From: Paeniglutamicibacter sulfureus
GTDB taxonomy: Bacteria > Actinomycetota > Actinomycetes > Actinomycetales > Micrococcaceae
Direction: 5' to 3'
DNA: 64,000 nt
Assembly: GCF_039535115.1 (NCBI RefSeq)
Contig: NZ_BAAAWO010000001.1
Coordinates: forward strand, 248,001-312,000
Below, piece after piece: positions 1,282 to 62,439 of the stretch. Under the pieces are notes generated by a model. That model was not told the origin of the DNA, did not search any database, and saw only the letters and a list, made by a program, of their open reading frames with translations. The position numbers and the translations under genes were made by a program. Position 1 is the stretch's first letter, and each line of letters begins with the position of its first letter.

Positions 1282-2343
1282 CTAGTTGGCGGCAAGTTCC
1301 TCGGAGAGTGCCGCGACGAAGGAATCGACGTCCGCCTCGGTGGTGTCGAAGGAGCACATCCAGCGCACCTGGCCCGCGGCGCGGTTCCAGTCGTAGAAGC
1401 GGAAGCGCTCGCGCAACCTGTCGGCAACGGCATTGGGCAGCTCGGCAAAAACGCCGTTGGATTGCGTCGGGTAGACCAGCTCCACGCCGTCGGTTGCCTC
1501 GACCGCCGCCGAAAGCCTGGCGGCCATCGCATTGGCGTGCGTGGCCGAGGTCAGCCACAGGTCGGAGCCGTAGAGGGCCAGCAGCTGGGCGGAGATGAAG
1601 CGCATCTTCGAGGCCAGCTGCATGTTCATCTTGCGCAGGTACTTCATCGACTCGGCAGGGCCATCGGAGAGCGTCACGATGCCCTCGCCGAACATGATGC
1701 CGTTCTTGGTGCCGCCCAGGGTCAGGATGTCGATTCCGGTGCCCGTGGCCATCTCGCCCAGCCCCACGCCCAGGGCGGCTGCGGCGTTGGAAATGCGTGC
1801 CCCGTCCATGTGCACGCGCATGCCCAGCGAATGGGCGTGGTCGGTGATGGCCCGCAACTCCTCCAGGGTGTACAGGGTGCCCGTCTCGGTGGACTGTGTC
1901 AGCGAGACGGCCAGCGGTTGGGCTCGGTGCTCGTCCCCCCAGCCCCAGGCCTCCATGTCGATCAATTCGGGGGTGAGCTTGCCGTCGGTGGACGGCACGG
2001 AGAGCAGTTTCATGCCGCCCATGCGCTCCGGGGCGCCGTTCTCGTCGACGTTGATGTGGGCGGTGGCGGCACAGATGACCGCTCCCCAGCGCGGCAGCAG
2101 GGACTGCAGCGCGATGACGTTGGCACCGGTGCCGTTGAACACCGGGAAGATCGTGGCGCCCTCGCCGAAGTGCCCGGCGACGACGGAACCGAGTTCCTCG
2201 GTGTACTGGTCATCGCCGTAGGAGACCTGGTGCCCGCCGTTGGCTTGGGTCAGGGCCGAAAGGACCTCGGGGTGGACACCGGAGTAGTTGTCCGAGGCGA
2301 AGCCGCGCACAGAAGAATCATGAATCGAAGTAGTCACTGGCAT
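1282..2343 (-). CDS. Low-specificity L-threonine aldolase / beta-eliminating lyase family protein
   Basis: 353 residues, the usual size for the fold-type I PLP threonine aldolase family, which cleaves threonine or allo-threonine to glycine and acetaldehyde. The N-terminus has the family-typical FASDNYSGVHPEVLSAL; AHINVDENGAPERMGG and MRVHMDGARISNA follow, the latter with the Asp that contacts the pyridine nitrogen; GGTKNG carries the PLP-binding lysine. ATG at 2343 is preceded by AGGA at 5 nt. The next gene upstream, an SDR, points the same way but has its own promoter-like signal. Substrate preference cannot be read from sequence, and some relatives are tyrosine or tryptophan lyase-like. Confidence 0.88.
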   Translation of the reverse strand: MPVTTSIHDSSVRGFASDNYSGVHPEVLSALTQANGGHQVSYGDDQYTEELGSVVAGHFGEGATIFPVFNGTGANVIALQSLLPRWGAVICAATAHINVDENGAPERMGGMKLLSVPSTDGKLTPELIDMEAWGWGDEHRAQPLAVSLTQSTETGTLYTLEELRAITDHAHSLGMRVHMDGARISNAAAALGVGLGEMATGTGIDILTLGGTKNGIMFGEGIVTLSDGPAESMKYLRKMNMQLASKMRFISAQLLALYGSDLWLTSATHANAMAARLSAAVEATDGVELVYPTQSNGVFAELPNAVADRLRERFRFYDWNRAAGQVRWMCSFDTTEADVDSFVAALSEELAAN

Positions 2344-2378
2344 TGCGTCCTAACAGGGTGGGATTGTGGGGGGGGGAG

Positions 2379-3107
2379 TTAGCGGGTGGGCAGGTGGATG
2401 CGCGCACCGTTGAGCGTGGCTGCCTCGCCGGAGAAAAGCTCAACTGCAGCCGCGCCCAGGGCCGCGACGTCGGTGTGTCCGGCGGTGTTGCGCTCCGGGT
2501 GCGCCGCGCGGGCCTGGGCGTCGGTGAACGCCTTGATGACCCAGATGGCGGCTGCGGCGCGCTGGGGAACCGGGTTGTCCTTGTTTCCCGCCTGCGCCGT
2601 GCGCAGCTCGGCGGCCACCGCGCGCATCCAGGCCTCGGCCCCGGCCTTGGCCGTGGTGTAGTTGGCATTGGAGCCGGCCGGCGCATCGACGGCGGTGGCC
2701 GAGACGATGGCCACGCGGCCGCGGCGCGAGGCCACCAGGTCGTCGCGGAAGACCCTGGTGGTGTTGCGCAGCGTGGTCACGACCTGCGTGTGCAGGAATT
2801 CGTAGTCGTCGTCGCTTTGCCCGGCCAGGCCCTTGCCGCCGCGCCAGCCGCCGACCAGGTGCAGCAACCCGTCGACGGGACCGCGCTCCACGTCGATGAG
2901 CTGGCGCAACTCGGTCACCGCAGCGTGGTTGGCCAGATCGACTTCGTAGCGCCCGTGCACGAAGGGCAGCCGTTCGGCAAGCCTTTCGGCGTTGGAACCT
3001 GCCGCCAGCACCGTGGCGCCGGCGGCGCACAGTGCATGGGCAGCCGCGACGCCCGAGGCGGAGGTGGCCCCGGCAATGAGTACCTTCAAATCAGTGAGGT
3101 CAGCCAT
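2379..3107 (-). CDS. Short-chain dehydrogenase/reductase (SDR) family protein
   Basis: 242 residues with a Rossmann N-terminus (VLIAGATSASGVAAAHAL, a variant of the SDR TGxxxGxG loop) and an active-site-like NYTTAKAG whose YxxxK Tyr and Lys can be read in frame. VSATAV precedes it where the catalytic Ser is expected. An NAD(P)-dependent oxidoreductase is likely; the substrate is unknown. A longer open frame continues upstream into the neighbour's reading region, but ATG at 3107 is preferred because the protein begins directly with the Rossmann fold and TAGACT sits 7 nt upstream (leaderless type). It lies 41 bp downstream of the DUF6421 gene on the same strand, suggesting a shared pathway. Confidence 0.8.
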   Translation of the reverse strand: MADLTDLKVLIAGATSASGVAAAHALCAAGATVLAAGSNAERLAERLPFVHGRYEVDLANHAAVTELRQLIDVERGPVDGLLHLVGGWRGGKGLAGQSDDDYEFLHTQVVTTLRNTTRVFRDDLVASRRGRVAIVSATAVDAPAGSNANYTTAKAGAEAWMRAVAAELRTAQAGNKDNPVPQRAAAAIWVIKAFTDAQARAAHPERNTAGHTDVAALGAAAVELFSGEAATLNGARIHLPTR

Positions 3108-3148
3108 GGAAGCGAGTCTAGCCTTTGCTGGTGGTTTCGGCGGCGGGA

Positions 3149-4522
3149 TCAGATGGACGAGGTGCCGGTGATGCCGATGGTGGAGTCGATGACCGGGCGC
3201 AATTTCTTGGCCAGGGCCTCGTAGAACATCGAGTGCGGGAACTCGTCGTCGAGGACCTCGTTGGTCATCTCGCGCAGCGGGGAGGAGAGCGGCAGCGCGT
3301 CGGCCCCCTTGGCCCACACCGAGCCCGGGTGCGGGACCAGGGTCGCTGAGACCAACTCGTAGGCGGCCAGCCAGTGGGCGATCTTCGGGCGGTCGATCGA
3401 GCGCCAGTACAACTCGTCGATGGCGTCTCCCAGGGCCGAGACCACCGCGGGGACCTGGTTCCAGTCGATGGACAGCTTGGTGTCGGTCCAGTGCAGCACG
3501 TGGTGCTGGTGCATCCAGGCGAAGAGCAGCTGGCCGCCCACGGCGTCGTAATTGCGGGTGCGGGTACCGGTCATGGCGAAGCGGAAGATCCGGTCGAAAA
3601 TCACCGCGTACTGCACCAGCTGGGCACGGTGTCGCGTGGTGGGGTCGGCCGAGATGTCGTGCTGGATCTTCACGCATTCACGGAAGGCGGTGAGGTCGCA
3701 GCGCAGCTCCTCGAGCGAGTAGAGGAAGTAGGGCATGCGCTGCTTGATCATGAACGGGTCGAAGGGCAGATCCCCGCGCATGTGGGTGCGGTCGTGGATC
3801 AGGTCCCACATCACGAAGGTTTCCTCGGTGAGGGCCTGGTCCTCGAGCATTTCGGCGGCATCCGCGGGCAGCTCCAGGCTGGTGATCTGTGCGGCGGATT
3901 TCAGCACGCGGCGGAAGCGGGCCGCCTCGCGGTCCTGGAAGATCGCGCCCCAGGTGAAGGACGGGGTCTCGCGGATGGAGACGGACTCGGGGAAGAGCAC
4001 CGCGGAGTTGGTGTCGTAGCCCGGGGTGAAATCCAGGAAGCGCAGCGGGACAAAGAGCTTGTTGGAATAGTCCCCGGCCTCAAGCCCGGCGATGAACTCG
4101 GGCCAGATGACCTCGACGAGGACCGCCTCGAGCAACCTGTCGGTGGATCCGTTTTGCGTGTACATCGGGAAAAGCACCAGGTGGCGCAAGCCATCCTCGC
4201 GCGCCAGCTGCGGGGCGAAGGCGCGCAGCGAGTCAAGGAAGTCGGGAATGCCGAAGCCCGAGGCACTCCAGGTGGCCAGGTCGGAGACGAGTCCCTCGAG
4301 GTAGGCAGCGTCGTGCGGGAATTGCGGGGCCAATGCGTGCAGCGATTCGGCGATGGCCACCGCCAGGGCCGCGGCGCGCGGCTTGTCGGCAGCCTCCGGC
4401 ACCGAGCCGTCCTGCCCCTGGAGGCCCTGGAACTCGGTGGCCGCGGCCTTCAGCGCCAACCACGGCGCGGAATTGACGAGCTCTGAGTTGGACAGCGGCT
4501 TGGGAAGAGTTGCCTGTGACAT
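3149..4522 (-). CDS. DUF6421 family protein
   Basis: 457 residues, no signal peptide and no clear membrane segment. I recognise it as the DUF6421 family from length, from the segments FTPGYDTNSAVLFPESVS and HDRTHMRGDLPFDPF, and from the SDR gene just downstream. The second segment is rich in His, Asp and Arg, and MHQHHVLHW lies further on; together these could form a metal or acid-base centre, but this is inference and no activity is known to me. The frame ends with EFPHSMFYEALAKKL. ATG at 4522 opens the protein, with purine- and G-rich sequence upstream. With the SDR it probably forms a two-gene functional unit. Confidence 0.8.
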   Translation of the reverse strand: MSQATLPKPLSNSELVNSAPWLALKAAATEFQGLQGQDGSVPEAADKPRAAALAVAIAESLHALAPQFPHDAAYLEGLVSDLATWSASGFGIPDFLDSLRAFAPQLAREDGLRHLVLFPMYTQNGSTDRLLEAVLVEVIWPEFIAGLEAGDYSNKLFVPLRFLDFTPGYDTNSAVLFPESVSIRETPSFTWGAIFQDREAARFRRVLKSAAQITSLELPADAAEMLEDQALTEETFVMWDLIHDRTHMRGDLPFDPFMIKQRMPYFLYSLEELRCDLTAFRECVKIQHDISADPTTRHRAQLVQYAVIFDRIFRFAMTGTRTRNYDAVGGQLLFAWMHQHHVLHWTDTKLSIDWNQVPAVVSALGDAIDELYWRSIDRPKIAHWLAAYELVSATLVPHPGSVWAKGADALPLSSPLREMTNEVLDDEFPHSMFYEALAKKLRPVIDSTIGITGTSSI

Positions 4523-4699
4523 GGTGGGAGACCCCTTTCGGTACGGCTGGATGCGACGCGCGGATGCTGCGGACCTTAGCTTGGTTCCAGCGTACTGAGG
4601 GGTCGTGGTTACTGATTGAAAAACGGTGTGAGCATCAGCAATGCTGTTGCATGTGCCATGCCGTGCTCACCAAGGCATGTGTGCAGGGAATGCTCGGCC

Positions 4700-9950: not shown

Positions 9951-11147
9951 TCAGTGGCGTTTGCGCTCGATGAGCAGGCGAAGGGTCAATCCGGCGACTA
10001 GCGCCCAGAATGCCCCGCCGATTCCGGCGAAGCTCAGGCCCGAACCGGCAATCAGGAACGCGACCAGGGAACTCATCCGGCTGGAGGGATCGGACAGCGC
10101 GGAGGACGCGGAGGAGCCGAGGGTTGCCAGCAACGCCAGGCCCGCCGCGGCTTCCAGCAGGCCCTCCGGGCTCGCGGTGGCCAGTGCCGTGATTGCGGCA
10201 GACGCCAATCCGAGCAGGATGTAGAAGCCGCCGGAGGAAACTGCCGCGATCCATCGCCTGGAGCGGTCTTCCCCGGCCTCGTCCCCGGCGGCGAGGGCGG
10301 CGGAAATCGCCGCAAGGTTGATGGCATGCCCGCCGAGGAACGCCGCCGCCGAGCTGCCGAGCCCGGTGGCCAACATGGAGGCGCGCCACGGTGTTTCGTA
10401 ATTGAAACTGGCCAGTACCGCAACGCCCGGAACGTTCTGCGAGGCCATGGTGACAACGAAGAGCGGCAGGGTGATTGCGGTGAAGGCCGCGAGGCTGAAT
10501 GCCGGTGCCGTGAATTCGAGACTCGGCAGCAACTGTCCCATCACTCCCGCGGCGTCGGCCCGTCCCATGGAAAAGCCTGCGATGCCCAAGGCCGCGGCCA
10601 TCGCGGCCGGAACCGCCCAGCGGGGACTGAAGCGCAGGAAGAGCAACCAGACCACGATAACCGGGGCGACATGCAACGGGATAGTGGACAACGCCACGAA
10701 GGGCGCCAGGCAGAGTTTGAGCAGTACTCCGGCCAGCATGGCTTGGGCCAGGGGGACGGGGATTGCTGCAAGCGTCCGGCCCAGCCAGGGGATGGCACCG
10801 GTTGCGGCAATCAGAACTCCGGTCATGATGAAGGCACCGACCGCTTCGTTCCAGCCGAAGTTCACTGCTGCCGCTCCGGCCAGCAACGCTGCACCGGGCG
10901 TCGACCATGCGGTGGTGATGGGTCGCTTGGTGAACCACGCCAGGCCAACTGCGCAAATGGCCAGTGCAATGGTGAGGGCGAAAAGCCCGGAAGCGGCCTG
11001 GGCGTCAGTCGCCCCGACGGCCCTGAGTCCTGTCAACACCACGGCAAAGGACGAGGTGTATCCGACCAACGCGGTGACAAGACCGGCCATGATCGGCTGT
11101 GCGAATGTCGATCGCCGTGGAGCGCTGGGGATGGCGGTGGAGGTCAA
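9951..11147 (-). CDS. BenE family benzoate/H+ symporter-like transporter
   Basis: 398 residues, almost entirely hydrophobic with about 12 predicted membrane segments. The family feature AWSTPGAALLAGAA (BenE-type STPGAALL) and FVVTMASQNVPGVAVLASF (related to the xanthine/uracil permease MASQN signature) identify it. BenE imports benzoate, but no catabolic genes are adjacent, so the substrate may differ. The likely start is TTG at 11147, with GGAAAG about 7 nt upstream and no better ATG in frame. C-terminal residues RLLIERKRH are the usual basic cytoplasmic tail. It is convergent with zapE. Confidence 0.88.
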   Translation of the reverse strand: MTSTAIPSAPRRSTFAQPIMAGLVTALVGYTSSFAVVLTGLRAVGATDAQAASGLFALTIALAICAVGLAWFTKRPITTAWSTPGAALLAGAAAVNFGWNEAVGAFIMTGVLIAATGAIPWLGRTLAAIPVPLAQAMLAGVLLKLCLAPFVALSTIPLHVAPVIVVWLLFLRFSPRWAVPAAMAAALGIAGFSMGRADAAGVMGQLLPSLEFTAPAFSLAAFTAITLPLFVVTMASQNVPGVAVLASFNYETPWRASMLATGLGSSAAAFLGGHAINLAAISAALAAGDEAGEDRSRRWIAAVSSGGFYILLGLASAAITALATASPEGLLEAAAGLALLATLGSSASSALSDPSSRMSSLVAFLIAGSGLSFAGIGGAFWALVAGLTLRLLIERKRH

Positions 11148-11252
11148 ATCATTTCTTTCCGTGCAAACGACAGGTGCCGGTTCCGCCTCACGGCGGTACC
11201 GGCACCCGTTTGTCGTGCCTAGGGCAAGAGTCCTAGTGAACCAGGCAGGAAC

Positions 11253-11474
11253 CTAGACGGTCGGCGTGCCGCCGTCTTCCTTGTTGAGGAGGCCCTTTGC
11301 GCCATCCTGAACCTTGTCGACGTGCTCGGAGAACTTTCCCCCGGTCTTTTCGTCGATGAAGTTGCCGGCGTTGTCGATGGCACCGCCGATCTTGTCCGAG
11401 TTTTCGTGAATCAACCCGGCCGCCTTCTCCTTCAGTCCTTCAGCCTTGCCCTTCAGCTCGTCAAAAATAGACAA
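11253..11474 (-). CDS. Small Rv0909/MT0933-type antitoxin-like protein
   Basis: 73 residues, Lys/Gly/Glu-rich and amphipathic: MSIFDELKGKAEGLKEKAAG, then IGGAIDNAGNFIDEKTGGKFSEHVDKVQDG. This pattern is typical of the MT0933/Rv0909 family, annotated as a putative antitoxin and also resembling CsbD-like stress proteins. A very strong ribosome-binding site (GAGAGGAGGTG) precedes a TTG start at 11474, suggesting high expression. No toxin-like gene is adjacent on either side, so an antitoxin role is doubtful; a general stress role is an alternative. Confidence 0.75.
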   Translation of the reverse strand: MSIFDELKGKAEGLKEKAAGLIHENSDKIGGAIDNAGNFIDEKTGGKFSEHVDKVQDGAKGLLNKEDGGTPTV

Positions 11475-11775
11475 AAGGCACCTCCTCTCAGTAATGGGGG
11501 CCCGAAAAGCCCCGTCTAGGAATCATCCTATGCTCAGTCGCGATCGAATCAAGGGCATTTGGATGAATTTCTTCTCCGATGCGACTCTGACTTGTATGTA
11601 CATACTGGCAGCTGTGACAGCGCTGCCATCAGTGGTATCGCAGGAGTAGGCCCGGTTTCCGCGATCTGAACCGAAACACGGGGCACCGTTGGGCGTTGGG
11701 GCCAACGGTGCCGGGGGATTGTTCGGCCCGTAATTCGGGCCTTGGTCCGGGCCTGGTACAAGAGGCGTTAAACAA
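11475..11775. other. Gene-free stretch with one unexplained hairpin
   Basis: No convincing coding frame on either strand. It contains the antitoxin-like gene's ribosome-binding site and a perfect 11-bp inverted repeat, GGCACCGTTGG (11682-11692) and CCAACGGTGCC (11702-11712), with a 9-nt loop. No U-tract follows on either strand, so a small structured RNA or remnant is possible. Confidence 0.4.
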
Positions 11776-11811
11776 GTAGATCGTGTGATTTGGAGTAATC
11801 ACACGATCTAC
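11766..11811 (-). terminator. Rho-independent terminator of the tRNA array
   Basis: A perfect 15-bp inverted repeat, GTAGATCGTGTGATT (11776-11790) and AATCACACGATCTAC (11797-11811), with a 6-nt loop. On the minus strand it begins 4 nt after the last tRNA-Gly and is followed by TTGTTTAA. Confidence 0.8.
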
Positions 11812-11815
11812 TATT

Positions 11816-11891
11816 TGGAGTGGACAACGAGGTTCGAACTCGCGACCTCAACCTTGGCAAGGTTGCGCTCTACCAGCTGAGCTATGTCCAC
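11816..11891 (-). tRNA. tRNA-Gly(GCC), copy with encoded CCA
   Basis: Minus-strand cloverleaf: acceptor GTGGACA/TGTCCAC, D-arm AGCTCAGCTGGTAGAGC, anticodon GCC within CTTGCCAAG, T-loop GTTCGAA, discriminator U. The genome encodes CCA directly after the discriminator, unlike the other tRNAs here. Its outermost anticodon-stem pair is A-U where the other two Gly copies have G-C, a compensatory change. It is the last gene of the array. Confidence 0.95.
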
Positions 11892-11925
11892 ATGAACAAT
11901 CAATACCTAAAGTATAGACTCTTCG

Positions 11926-11997
11926 TGGGCGATACTGGGTTCGAACCAGTGACCTCTTCCGTGTCAGGGAAGCGCGCTACCGCTGCGCCAATCGCCC
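11926..11997 (-). tRNA. tRNA-Val(GAC), copy 1
   Basis: Acceptor GGGCGAT/ATCGCCC, anticodon loop CTGACAC between CTTCC and GGAAG, T-loop GTTCGAA, discriminator A, no encoded CCA. Identical to the copy at 12260-12331. Confidence 0.95.
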
Positions 11998-12152
11998 ATA
12001 GGGGGGGGTGCTGCACCTGAACTATAGCTTGGATTCACGATCTGCAAAATGGCAATCCAACTTTTCATGCGGGTGCTGCGTGTTCTTACCCGGGGGTAAA
12101 AGAACAAAGAACAAGGCCTCTCTTCGAAAAGGAATTGAGGCCCGATCTTCAG

Positions 12153-12225
12153 AGTGGACAACGAGGTTCGAACTCGCGACCTCGACCTTGGCAAGGTCGC
12201 GCTCTACCAGCTGAGCTATGTCCAC
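12153..12225 (-). tRNA. tRNA-Gly(GCC), copy 2
   Basis: Same cloverleaf as the Gly copy at 11816, but with a G-C pair in place of A-U at the outer end of the anticodon stem. No encoded CCA. The Gly-Val spacing of 34 nt is the same as in the first Gly-Val unit, indicating a tandem duplication with a 334-bp period. Confidence 0.95.
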
Positions 12226-12259
12226 GTGAAAAACCAACACACCAGGTGTGGATTCTTCG

Positions 12260-12331
12260 TGGGCGATACTGGGTTCGAACCAGTGACCTCTTCCGTGTCA
12301 GGGAAGCGCGCTACCGCTGCGCCAATCGCCC
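12260..12331 (-). tRNA. tRNA-Val(GAC), copy 2
   Basis: Identical in sequence to the Val copy at 11926-11997: anticodon GAC, acceptor GGGCGAT/ATCGCCC, discriminator A, no encoded CCA. Confidence 0.95.
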
Positions 12332-60724: not shown

Positions 60725-60769
60725 GGAACGAACTTTTGATGGATCACTGATCCACCTGAAGTAGACGAC

Positions 60770-60817
60770 AAGAACCCCCGCTCCAGCAATGGAGCGGGGG
60801 TTCTTGCAATTTTTCGG
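60770..60817 (+). terminator. Rho-independent terminator of rpsA
   Basis: Perfect 16-bp stem AAGAACCCCCGCTCCA (60770-60785) / TGGAGCGGGGGTTCTT (60790-60805), GCAA tetraloop, followed by GCAATTTTTC. Confidence 0.92.
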
Positions 60818-60881: not shown

Positions 60882-61148
60882 CTACTGGATGTCGCTATCC
60901 GGCGGGTTGATGCGGAACCGCCGTTCCGGGTCGACGGATTGAACGCCTTCCACCCCGGCCAGCGTCGTGCGCTTGGCTTCCTCGGCCCGGCCGATAATCT
61001 GGCCGAGGGTGCCGAGCACCCTCTCGACCGTCATGCCTGCCGATTCGAGCTGCCCGGTGACTTCCTCCACCCGGCCCAGGTACTGGCTCTGCACGGTGAC
61101 GATGTAGCCGACGGTTTCCGCGGGCTGTTGCCCCGGGTCATCACCCAT
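60882..61148 (-). CDS. Stand-alone subtilisin-propeptide (I9)-like small protein
   Basis: 88 residues starting MGDDPGQQPAETVGYIVTVQ. The pattern VTVQSQYLGRVEEVTGQLES, GMTVERVLGTLGQIIGRA and VEGVQSVDPERRFRI has the beta-alpha-beta-beta-alpha-beta spacing of I9 inhibitor/propeptide domains: a strand, helix, VxxVLxxLGxIxG strand pair, and VxGVxxV strand. It has no signal peptide. ATG 61148 lies within ATGGGTGA, overlapping the stop of the upstream S8 protease gene, so translation is coupled. It is probably a chaperone or inhibitor of that protease. Homologues are sometimes mislabelled ketohydroxyglutarate aldolase. No experimental support. Confidence 0.7.
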   Translation of the reverse strand: MGDDPGQQPAETVGYIVTVQSQYLGRVEEVTGQLESAGMTVERVLGTLGQIIGRAEEAKRTTLAGVEGVQSVDPERRFRINPPDSDIQ

Positions 61149-62439
61149 GGCCGTAAAAGCTTTCAGATGCGTCATCCTCCGAAGGTTCACTGGACACCGG
61201 TTCGGACACCGGTTCGGGCACCGGCGCAGATGCCTGCTCCCGGATCGGTGGCGGAGCTTGCGCCAGGCCCGCCCCGACGTCGACGGAGAATTGTTCGAGC
61301 CGTTCGGACTCTTGGACGAGTTCCGCCCAGAGTTCCCTGCCCCGGTAACCGGTGGCCTCGGACAGGAGCGCCGCAACGCCGGCAACATGCGGGGTAGCCA
61401 TCGACGTGCCGCTGATGGTGTTGTAGCGCTGGGCACCGGGCCAGGAGGAATAGACCTTCACTCCGGGGCCGGAGACATCGACCTGGCCCCCTCGGCCCGG
61501 CAACGTGCGGGCGGAGAAGTCGGCGACGAGCAGGTTTTCGTCAAGTGCGGCGACGGACAGGATATAGGGGCTGTTGGCCGGTGCGCCGACGAATCCCGGG
61601 TTGCCCGCCGACCGACGGGCGTTGTTGCCGGCCGCGGCGACGATGAGGGTCCCGCGCTCCAGGGCACGGTGGCCGGCGGCGACATAGGGCGGGTGGACCT
61701 CCCGCACGTCGGCACCCAGCGACATGGAGATGATGTGGCAGTCGTTTTGCAGGGCCCAGTCGATGCCGGCGAGGATCCCGGTATCGGAACCCGAACCCTC
61801 GTTGCTGAGCACCTTGCCGGCGAAGATGGAGGCCTCCGGGGCCACGCCGTAGGCCCTGGCTCCCGGCAACGGGCGCGGTCCGCAGGCCGTGCCGATGCAG
61901 TGGGTGCCGTGGCCGTGCCCGTCGTGGGAATCCTCGCCCTCGATGAAGGACATGGTGGTGACGTCGCGTCCGGCGAAATCCGGGTGCGCGGCGTCAAAAC
62001 CGGTGTCCAGCACCGCAACGCGAATCCCCCGCCCGGTGTAGCCGGACTCCCGGGCACGTACCGCCTGCAGGCCCCAGGTCAGCTCGTCGTTGTCTGCGAA
62101 GGGCGGTCCCGCAGCAATGCCCGGCTCCGGGGCCGGGCTCGAGAGGATGTGGTACATCAGTTCCGGGACGATCCTCAGCGGCATGTTCCGCGAATCACAG
62201 CGGGCCTGCAGTTCACCGAGCTGGGCTGATTCCCCGCCCACGACAGCCACCCCGAGGCGCGGGAAGTAGGTGTCCAGCGAGAAGCCCTCCCGTTCCAGCA
62301 TGGTCGGCACCTCCTCCTGGAGCGTGCGGGCGCCGAACCTCTCCCCGGCGGAGGGGTGGGGGTCGGCAAAGACGACCACGTACCGTCCGGGGACGGGAGT
62401 GGCGGCGTTGGCTGTGGGGGATTCGTCGGAAATGAACAA
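61141..62439 (-). CDS. S8 family subtilisin-like serine protease, apparently cytoplasmic
   Basis: 432 residues. Catalytic triad: Asp145 in VAVLDTGFDAAHPD, His180 in GHGHGTHCIGTACG, Ser346 in SGTSMATPHVAGVAAL; the oxyanion Asn272 is in AAAGNNARR. Residues 1-95 form an I9-like N-terminal domain (GRYVVVFADPHPSAG ... FPRLGVAVVGG). There is no signal peptide or membrane helix, so it should be intracellular. The C-terminus is Pro/Val/Glu-rich (SAPVPEPVSEPVSSEPSEDD). It overlaps a small propeptide-like gene downstream. Substrate unknown. Confidence 0.88.
   Translation of the reverse strand: MFISDESPTANAATPVPGRYVVVFADPHPSAGERFGARTLQEEVPTMLEREGFSLDTYFPRLGVAVVGGESAQLGELQARCDSRNMPLRIVPELMYHILSSPAPEPGIAAGPPFADNDELTWGLQAVRARESGYTGRGIRVAVLDTGFDAAHPDFAGRDVTTMSFIEGEDSHDGHGHGTHCIGTACGPRPLPGARAYGVAPEASIFAGKVLSNEGSGSDTGILAGIDWALQNDCHIISMSLGADVREVHPPYVAAGHRALERGTLIVAAAGNNARRSAGNPGFVGAPANSPYILSVAALDENLLVADFSARTLPGRGGQVDVSGPGVKVYSSWPGAQRYNTISGTSMATPHVAGVAALLSEATGYRGRELWAELVQESERLEQFSVDVGAGLAQAPPPIREQASAPVPEPVSEPVSSEPSEDDASESFYGHG

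Follow-up and report, generated by a model that had tools for sequence, protein, structure and literature searches.

Background

A potent cytoplasmic endoprotease needs restraint, and the published bacterial solutions that we found for subtilases are a short pro-peptide in cis and an Ig-fold inhibitor encoded elsewhere. The former is typified by the Bacillus-type intracellular subtilisins (ISPs), which lack a signal peptide and carry a 16-20-residue cis extension, wherein a Pro at P1' shifts the scissile bond away from the catalytic Ser and leaves the bound pro-peptide uncut (PMC6220982). The latter is the Bacillus subtilis inhibitor IPI, a protein inhibitor reported for the intracellular subtilisin Isp1, which has an Ig-like fold, whose intracellular nature has been questioned, and whose gene was not found close to a subtilisin gene in any complete genome examined (PMC3901451). 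Stand-alone propeptide-type inhibitors are known in fungi, plants and apicomplexans, where the described cases (proteinase A inhibitor 1, the yeast peptidase B inhibitor, Arabidopsis SPI-1, Toxoplasma MIC5 and Plasmodium SUB1-ProM) inhibit in trans (PMC6993865). A bacterial I9 prodomain profile built in this study (A5) matches chains of such eukaryotic-type inhibitors (1v5i_B and 1itp_A) at E 1e-4. Proteinase A inhibitor 1 stems from Pleurotus, and to our knowledge this third solution (a propeptide as a gene of its own) occurs in eukaryotes only, with the genes lying separately. A survey of the serine proteases of prokaryotes, published in 2008, uses the terms 'propeptide', 'stand-alone' and 'intracellular' zero times in its main text (PMC2605481), and our literature search (covering few subscription papers) returned no comparable bacterial pair among the matches listed, and no paper combining Paeniglutamicibacter with 'subtilisin'.

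The locus reported here lies in a window (i.e. the whole stretch of DNA analysed) of 64,000 nt from Paeniglutamicibacter sulfureus, and consists of a subtilase gene overlapped by a gene for an 88-residue protein. Like the ISPs, the subtilase is apparently devoid of a signal peptide and a Pro is found after P1, but the 16-20-residue extension with its LIPY/F motif gives way to a cis prodomain roughly 80 residues long, complemented by an I9-like protein in trans. Like IPI, the small protein would be a separate inhibitor of an intracellular subtilase, but its gene adjoins that of the protease, and with respect to an Ig-like domain the Pfam scan returned no family while profile similarity points toward I9. 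With the eukaryotic stand-alone inhibitors it shares the nature of a separate, small, subtilase-propeptide-like protein; it differs from them in that the gene sits right behind that of the protease and co-occurs with it, in that a Pro-containing tail passes P1 in most members, and in that its I9 similarity falls below the Pfam threshold. Finally, profile similarity, a capping motif and a substrate-like C-terminal strand connect it to the prodomains of Pfam Inhibitor_I9 (PF05922), but the prodomains of this type found in our study lie in frames of 226-1976 aa, whereas the small protein of the window is a free-standing chain that the Pfam model does not detect. The pair probably works like a trans propeptide inhibitor.

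The protease and the overlapping small gene

The gene pair comprises the following features:
61141..62439, minus strand: S8 subtilase, 432 aa, TTG start (ORF calling; Pfam Peptidase_S8, E 6.9e-46)
62143..62385, minus strand: cis prodomain of the protease, approximately residues 19-99, limits set by eye (hhalign versus I9)
61309..62034, minus strand: S8 catalytic domain, residues 136-377 (Pfam PF00082)
60882..61148, minus strand: stand-alone propeptide-like (I9-like) protein, 88 aa, ATG start (ORF, co-occurrence and profile comparison)

The pair is real: a protease gene, preceded by GAGGAG six bases upstream of its TTG start, is followed by an 88-aa gene whose start sits inside ...GGCCATGGGTGA, the final protease codons, with an overlap of 8 nt. 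Both proteins are 100% identical to those of Paeniglutamicibacter sulfureus As4PL (the nearest named record). In the whole genome three sequences match S8, and the small family is represented just once (E 2e-25, the next best match being at 0.5). The S8 domain together with an intact Asp/His/Ser triad (Asp145 in VLDTG, His180 in HGTH and Ser346 in GTSMA, all retained in the single aligned relative) places the protease in family S8. Its N-terminus, MFISDESPTANAATPVPGRYVVVF, is without a signal-like stretch, as judged by eye and hydropathy only (maximum 12-residue Kyte-Doolittle mean of 0.94, in a scan without a usable positive control), and ahead of the catalytic domain it carries a prodomain-like region of about 80 residues. 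At the family level this region aligns with I9 (hhalign 78.9%, P 1.6e-5) while the reversed control reaches 0.5%. The intact triad, the missing signal peptide, the I9-like N-terminal region and the start of the 88-residue gene within the 3' end of the protease gene had all been read from the letters in a preliminary description, and each was recovered here; its text was accurate in other respects too, except that 60882, given as a start, corresponds to the 3' terminus of the small gene. The small gene evolves under constraint, as pN was lower than pS in 21/21 within-genus pairs (drawn from seven small genes). AlphaFold2 models were unusable for the small protein (window sequence plus that of locus L032: pTM 0.32, pLDDT 63, helices only) and for the protease (two-row alignment: mean pLDDT 30).

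Co-occurrence and gene order

Among 197 genomes of the family, the protease query matched 46 (E <=1e-60) and the small-protein query 48 (E <=0.001), the 46 being wholly contained in the 48. The two remaining genomes (G049 and G155) hold marginal, partial matches (E 8e-4 and 6e-4) within frames of 605 and 632 aa, which we excluded as orthologues; even when these are counted as small genes, the protease is present in 46/48 genomes with a small-gene hit, as it is in 3/3 strongly matching genomes of the phylum sample. Small genes without a protease, the finding that the preliminary description had set against its own proposal, are therefore not a regular occurrence. Within the window's genus both genes were found in 9 genomes and neither in 3 (in the 46-row tables the identical L031, which shares its contig with L077, stands for the window pair).

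The order (protease followed by small gene on the same strand) is conserved in 46/46 family genomes. With small-gene starts that were picked manually, 14 pairs share 4 or 8 nt, another 26 have gaps of 1-95 nt, one is an in-frame fusion, one is spaced by 624 nt and four by 2.6-2.7 kb, so that 41/46 (fusion included) lie within 95 nt. The fusion (L062, positions 2126-3580, genome G089) joins protease and small protein in one 484-aa frame; it is either natural or an assembly error, and relatives of the same genus keep separate genes. The four widely spaced pairs (L045-L048) come from four genomes of a single genus (g21), and in two of them (L046 and L048) the interval is filled by two membrane CBS-domain-like genes (assigned by eye).

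Outside the family, a sample of the order provided seven protease loci in five genomes, with the small gene downstream at 6/7 loci and in 5/5 genomes. The pairing held throughout the 46 family genomes, but not for one protease copy beyond them: the partnerless locus is the second of two protease loci in a genome where the other one is paired (L162, genome G749; reverse-complement 2858-4618 and 10904-12286, paralogues whose starts are about 8 kb apart). In the phylum sample (396 genomes), three strong small-gene hits and three strong protease hits fell in identical genomes; absences in these scans are soft, because only part of the candidates per genome was scored (13 and 4). Three further S8 matches (G302, G377 and G529; E 1e-46 to 1e-50, frames of 1215-1263 aa, all of one genus) were classed as other subtilases, and no small partner was detected at their loci.

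The search for co-occurrence, which had been proposed for Micrococcales, uncovered the arrangement in four phyla (Actinomycetota, Pseudomonadota, Bacteroidota and Deinococcota), with similar pairs on plasmids from all four. We opened 12 distinct plasmid protease loci (Methylobacterium, Palleronia, two Rhizobium, two Streptomyces, Hymenobacter, Vibrio and four Deinococcus), and 12/12 had a gene of 74-105 aa just downstream, a count that refers to gene size and position. The matches Vibrio H33 and H35 (identical protease) and H16-H18 (42-44% over about 60% of the query) were left out. The small genes are annotated in these records as hypothetical protein only; the R. sullae record is without annotation, and its small gene was read by eye. 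In D. psychrotolerans protease and small gene are separated by a gap of 300 nt. A tblastn search with the window protein as sole query found no phage-borne copies, and among viral contigs no further relatives were found with our patterns, one of which demanded a TGA stop and would therefore miss the window gene.

Relationship of the small protein to I9 prodomains

Neither Pfam nor NCBIfam assigned a family to the small protein of the window, which did not reach the cut-off of PF05922, a domain that was not found in the genome either. Sub-threshold Pfam I9 hits were returned for 1/28 and 1/8 of its relatives, and in the actinobacteria-rich set of 28 members (A1) NCBIfam gave no family common to more than two of them. 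At the profile level, the small protein does show similarity to I9 prodomains: an alignment of 50 small proteins reached 95.3% in hhalign (P 2.3e-8; reversed <=0.6%) against 26 I9 prodomains taken from same-class genomes. The profiles of this run, that of the cis prodomains included, omitted 8 near-duplicate family sequences, 4 I9 loci cut by contig ends and 10 cis prodomains missed by the pattern. In another pairing, of smaller alignments, the small family extended with distant relatives (A6) reached 93.8% against A5, while A1 attained only 74.7% against I9 and, when searched against PDB sequences, yielded no propeptide match. In the PDB search with A6 a subtilase propeptide came first (8c4x_B, E 6e-4), the second and third matches are unrelated proteins (E 0.012 and 0.013), and the lower ones include the propeptides 8c4z_A (0.023), 9rk9_A (0.071) and Tk-subtilisin (0.086 and up). 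Compared with the cis prodomain of the protease, the small family scored 80.4% (reversed 1.2% and 0.3%), and the Deinococcus/Vibrio branch alone 0.4%. Furthermore, of 44 weaker phylum hits 27 were given loci and 17 left out; in 6 of these 27 an S8 domain follows the hit immediately on its C-terminal side, within one reading frame. Taken together, these comparisons suggest that the small protein is a probable distant relative of I9.

The C-terminal tail

The tail of the small protein was placed by homology:
60885..60926, minus strand: tail, residues 75-88 (E RRFRINPPDSDIQ), assigned from the hhalign alignment

In this alignment Glu75 falls on the conserved Asp of I9, which matches the Asp of the BPN' prosegment (1spb_P), and the subsites assigned by homology are F78 (P4), I80 (P2), N81 (P1) and P82-P83 (P1'-P2'). 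Both 1spb_P and 1scj_B extend six residues past the aligned Asp, the last of these being P1; four Deinococcus proteins and the Vibrio protein likewise end exactly at +6, with I, L or M. The 46 family proteins adhere to this register, with F/Y/H/V/I/L/M at +3 (P4) and I/L/A/V at +5 (P2) in 46/46 each, a Pro at +6 or +7 (P1 or P1') in 39/42 long tails, and Gln as the last residue in 38/46. Seven proteins are without the Pro, all of them from one genus (g23) that also has Pro-bearing members; these have L/I at +6 followed by 0-4 residues, i.e. a product-like end. As for the residues corresponding to Glu69 and Asp71, which cap helices of the catalytic domain in BPN' (PMC6993865), position -2 is D/E in 35/46 and position 0 is E/D/Q in 36/46, which makes the capping pair usual rather than invariant, and the small protein thus combines the capping positions and the P4-P1 strand of I9 prodomains. 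The 12 plasmid proteins follow more loosely, with V/I/Y at +3 in 9/12 (the others having A, R or Q), A/L/I at +5 in 10/12 and Pro in 4/5 long tails; the Hymenobacter and some Rhizobium tails match the register poorly. We would hazard the guess that the conserved ...DSDIQ end, beyond P2', binds on the prime side.

The cis prodomains end in E-x-x-Y/H-x-I/A/V with L or I at +6 in 43/46, the pattern used to find these ends prescribing Y/H at +3 and I/V/A/L at +5, so that only +6 and +7 are free observations. L/I at this cis +6 would make a good P1 for a subtilisin. In the window the cis prodomain ends ...PELMYHIL, with a capping-type Glu, a putative P4 Tyr, a P2 Ile and a P1 Leu. Since a Pro at +7 is also present in 11/46 cis prodomains, Pro alone cannot tell cis from trans.

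A proposed latency module and its alternatives

The gene pair, its co-occurrence, the constraint on the small gene, the I9 profile similarity and the tail pattern were observed directly; starting from them, we infer the fold, binding, inhibition, cis cleavage site, cleavage resistance and release that make up the following model, and consider it fairly probable that the small protein is a dedicated, mostly uncleavable propeptide-type inhibitor acting in trans on a cytoplasmic subtilase (a zymogen-plus-inhibitor module). Synthesized in the cytoplasm, the protease would fold with the help of its I9-like cis prodomain, which would be removed by cleavage at a Leu-type P1 site. A second I9-like domain, provided in trans by the small protein, would dock on the same face, its V-D/E-x-E/D motif capping the catalytic helices and its tail threading the S4-S1 subsites in a substrate-like manner. 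This tail should remain mostly uncut, because it bears a Pro at P1 or P1', or because the chain ends at P1; the small protein would thereby use Pro as an ISP does, from an I9-like scaffold. Loss of the inhibitor, whether through dilution, turnover or some signal, would end this cytoplasmic latency of the mature enzyme. The two domains would be accounted for most simply if the cis prodomain is cut and its trans counterpart mostly escapes cleavage. The profile similarity to I9, the common C-terminal register and the co-occurrence support the suggestion of the preliminary description that a propeptide-like unit dedicated to the protease is encoded in trans.

Other roles for the small protein were weighed against such an inhibitor. 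It may chiefly serve as an intermolecular chaperone of the catalytic domain and have no part as a physiological inhibitor, a role in keeping with the observation that propeptides of mesophilic subtilases both fold and inhibit (PMC10580911) and with translation of the small gene directly after the protease (overlapping in 14/46 genomes by the chosen starts); but the protease already owns a cis prodomain with an I9-like profile, and a foldase would presumably not require a substrate-like tail that avoids cleavage, so we regard this role as unlikely and favour inhibition over folding. That the protein belongs to another type of ferredoxin-like domain and acts for the protease as an adaptor, a sensor or a subunit appears rather improbable to us, even though Pfam does not call I9 and, in 6/28 members of A1, shows a weak preference for DAHP_snth_FXD (the ferredoxin-like domain of DAHP synthase; best E 2.7e-4). 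In hhalign, FXD comes close to I9 with the actinobacterial-type branch (88.0% versus 89.9%) and less so with the full small set (86.8% versus 95.3%), and I9 and FXD score 70.9% against each other; a general ferredoxin-like signal (possibly the shared beta-alpha-beta pattern) therefore contributes to the I9 score. On the other hand, the Deinococcus/Vibrio branch separates the two domains clearly (94.2% with I9, 18.6% with FXD), the top PDB match of A6 is a subtilase propeptide, the weaker genome hits include some on subtilase prodomain positions, and the tail register agrees with the ends of solved propeptides.

A toxin-antitoxin-like or defence module, in which the protease would be an effector that harms cell proteins once a labile inhibitor is lost (upon infection or plasmid loss), would include an inhibitor, and its probability consequently overlaps with that of the preferred reading; taken as a role of its own, we hold it to be quite improbable. 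It would fit the patchy spread (46/197 family genomes, and three strong cases among 396 genomes of the phylum), as well as the surroundings of two plasmid copies, one next to a gene annotated as DndB and a DNA methyltransferase, the other with a TIR gene about 3.5 kb away. Against it, PADLOC scans of five proteins gave partial matches only (to a generic subtilase domain and to IetS, with the small proteins unmatched), the neighbours of the pair in the window are an isochorismatase-family gene (Pfam) and an rpsA-like gene (by eye), and the remaining annotated plasmid flanks that we opened, each spanning 2-5 kb, showed no obvious defence gene. A spurious small ORF, or one co-transcribed but unrelated, might be suspected from the plasmid records, which call it no more than a hypothetical protein; it is contradicted by its conservation with the protease, its constraint and its one fusion to it, and we deem it exceedingly improbable.

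Returning to the trans propeptide-type inhibitor, we would tentatively extend it to at least four phyla, in which cytoplasmic subtilases might be kept under a trans propeptide encoded by the adjacent gene, with a tail that usually cannot be cut. On this broader scale, which we place somewhat short of probable, the pair would represent an undescribed two-gene latency switch, and possibly an effector-inhibitor module of plasmids. Pairs listed in genome records as 'S8 family serine peptidase' and 'hypothetical protein' would thus gain a name and a testable mechanism. Moreover, they may yield a natural, protein-sized subtilisin inhibitor, whose cleavage resistance would rest on one or two prolines.

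Genomic surroundings of the pair

The plasmid loci differ in their flanks. In the mobilizable plasmid pSEA2 of Vibrio alfacsensis (L150, 13059-18666) the pair is flanked by DndB-annotated and hypothetical genes and by a DNA cytosine methyltransferase, and a link of this copy to DNA modification or defence is possible. Membership of the pair in a known anti-phage defence system was not supported, no full-length PADLOC match having been found among the five proteins scanned. In a Streptomyces jietaisiensis plasmid (L079, 3685-10219) the gene after the pair is likewise annotated as a serine protease, and a SUMF1-family gene lies on the opposite strand, while in plasmid P1 of Deinococcus gobiensis (L148, 5514-6137) a second S8 peptidase gene is found about 1.5 kb past the pair. 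The protease of a Streptomyces avidinii plasmid (L082, 1544-2855) is annotated as two overlapping frames with no single read-through frame; the small partner gene is intact and adjoins an IS5 transposase gene.

In the window, one further feature lies beyond the 3' end of the small gene:
60769..60806, strand not given: hairpin of 17 pairs (consensus scan)

The scan returned two overlapping sites on the plus strand (mean of 1.0 in shuffles). The hairpin separates the small gene from the convergent gene, rpsA-like by eye, and it is possibly a terminator shared by both.
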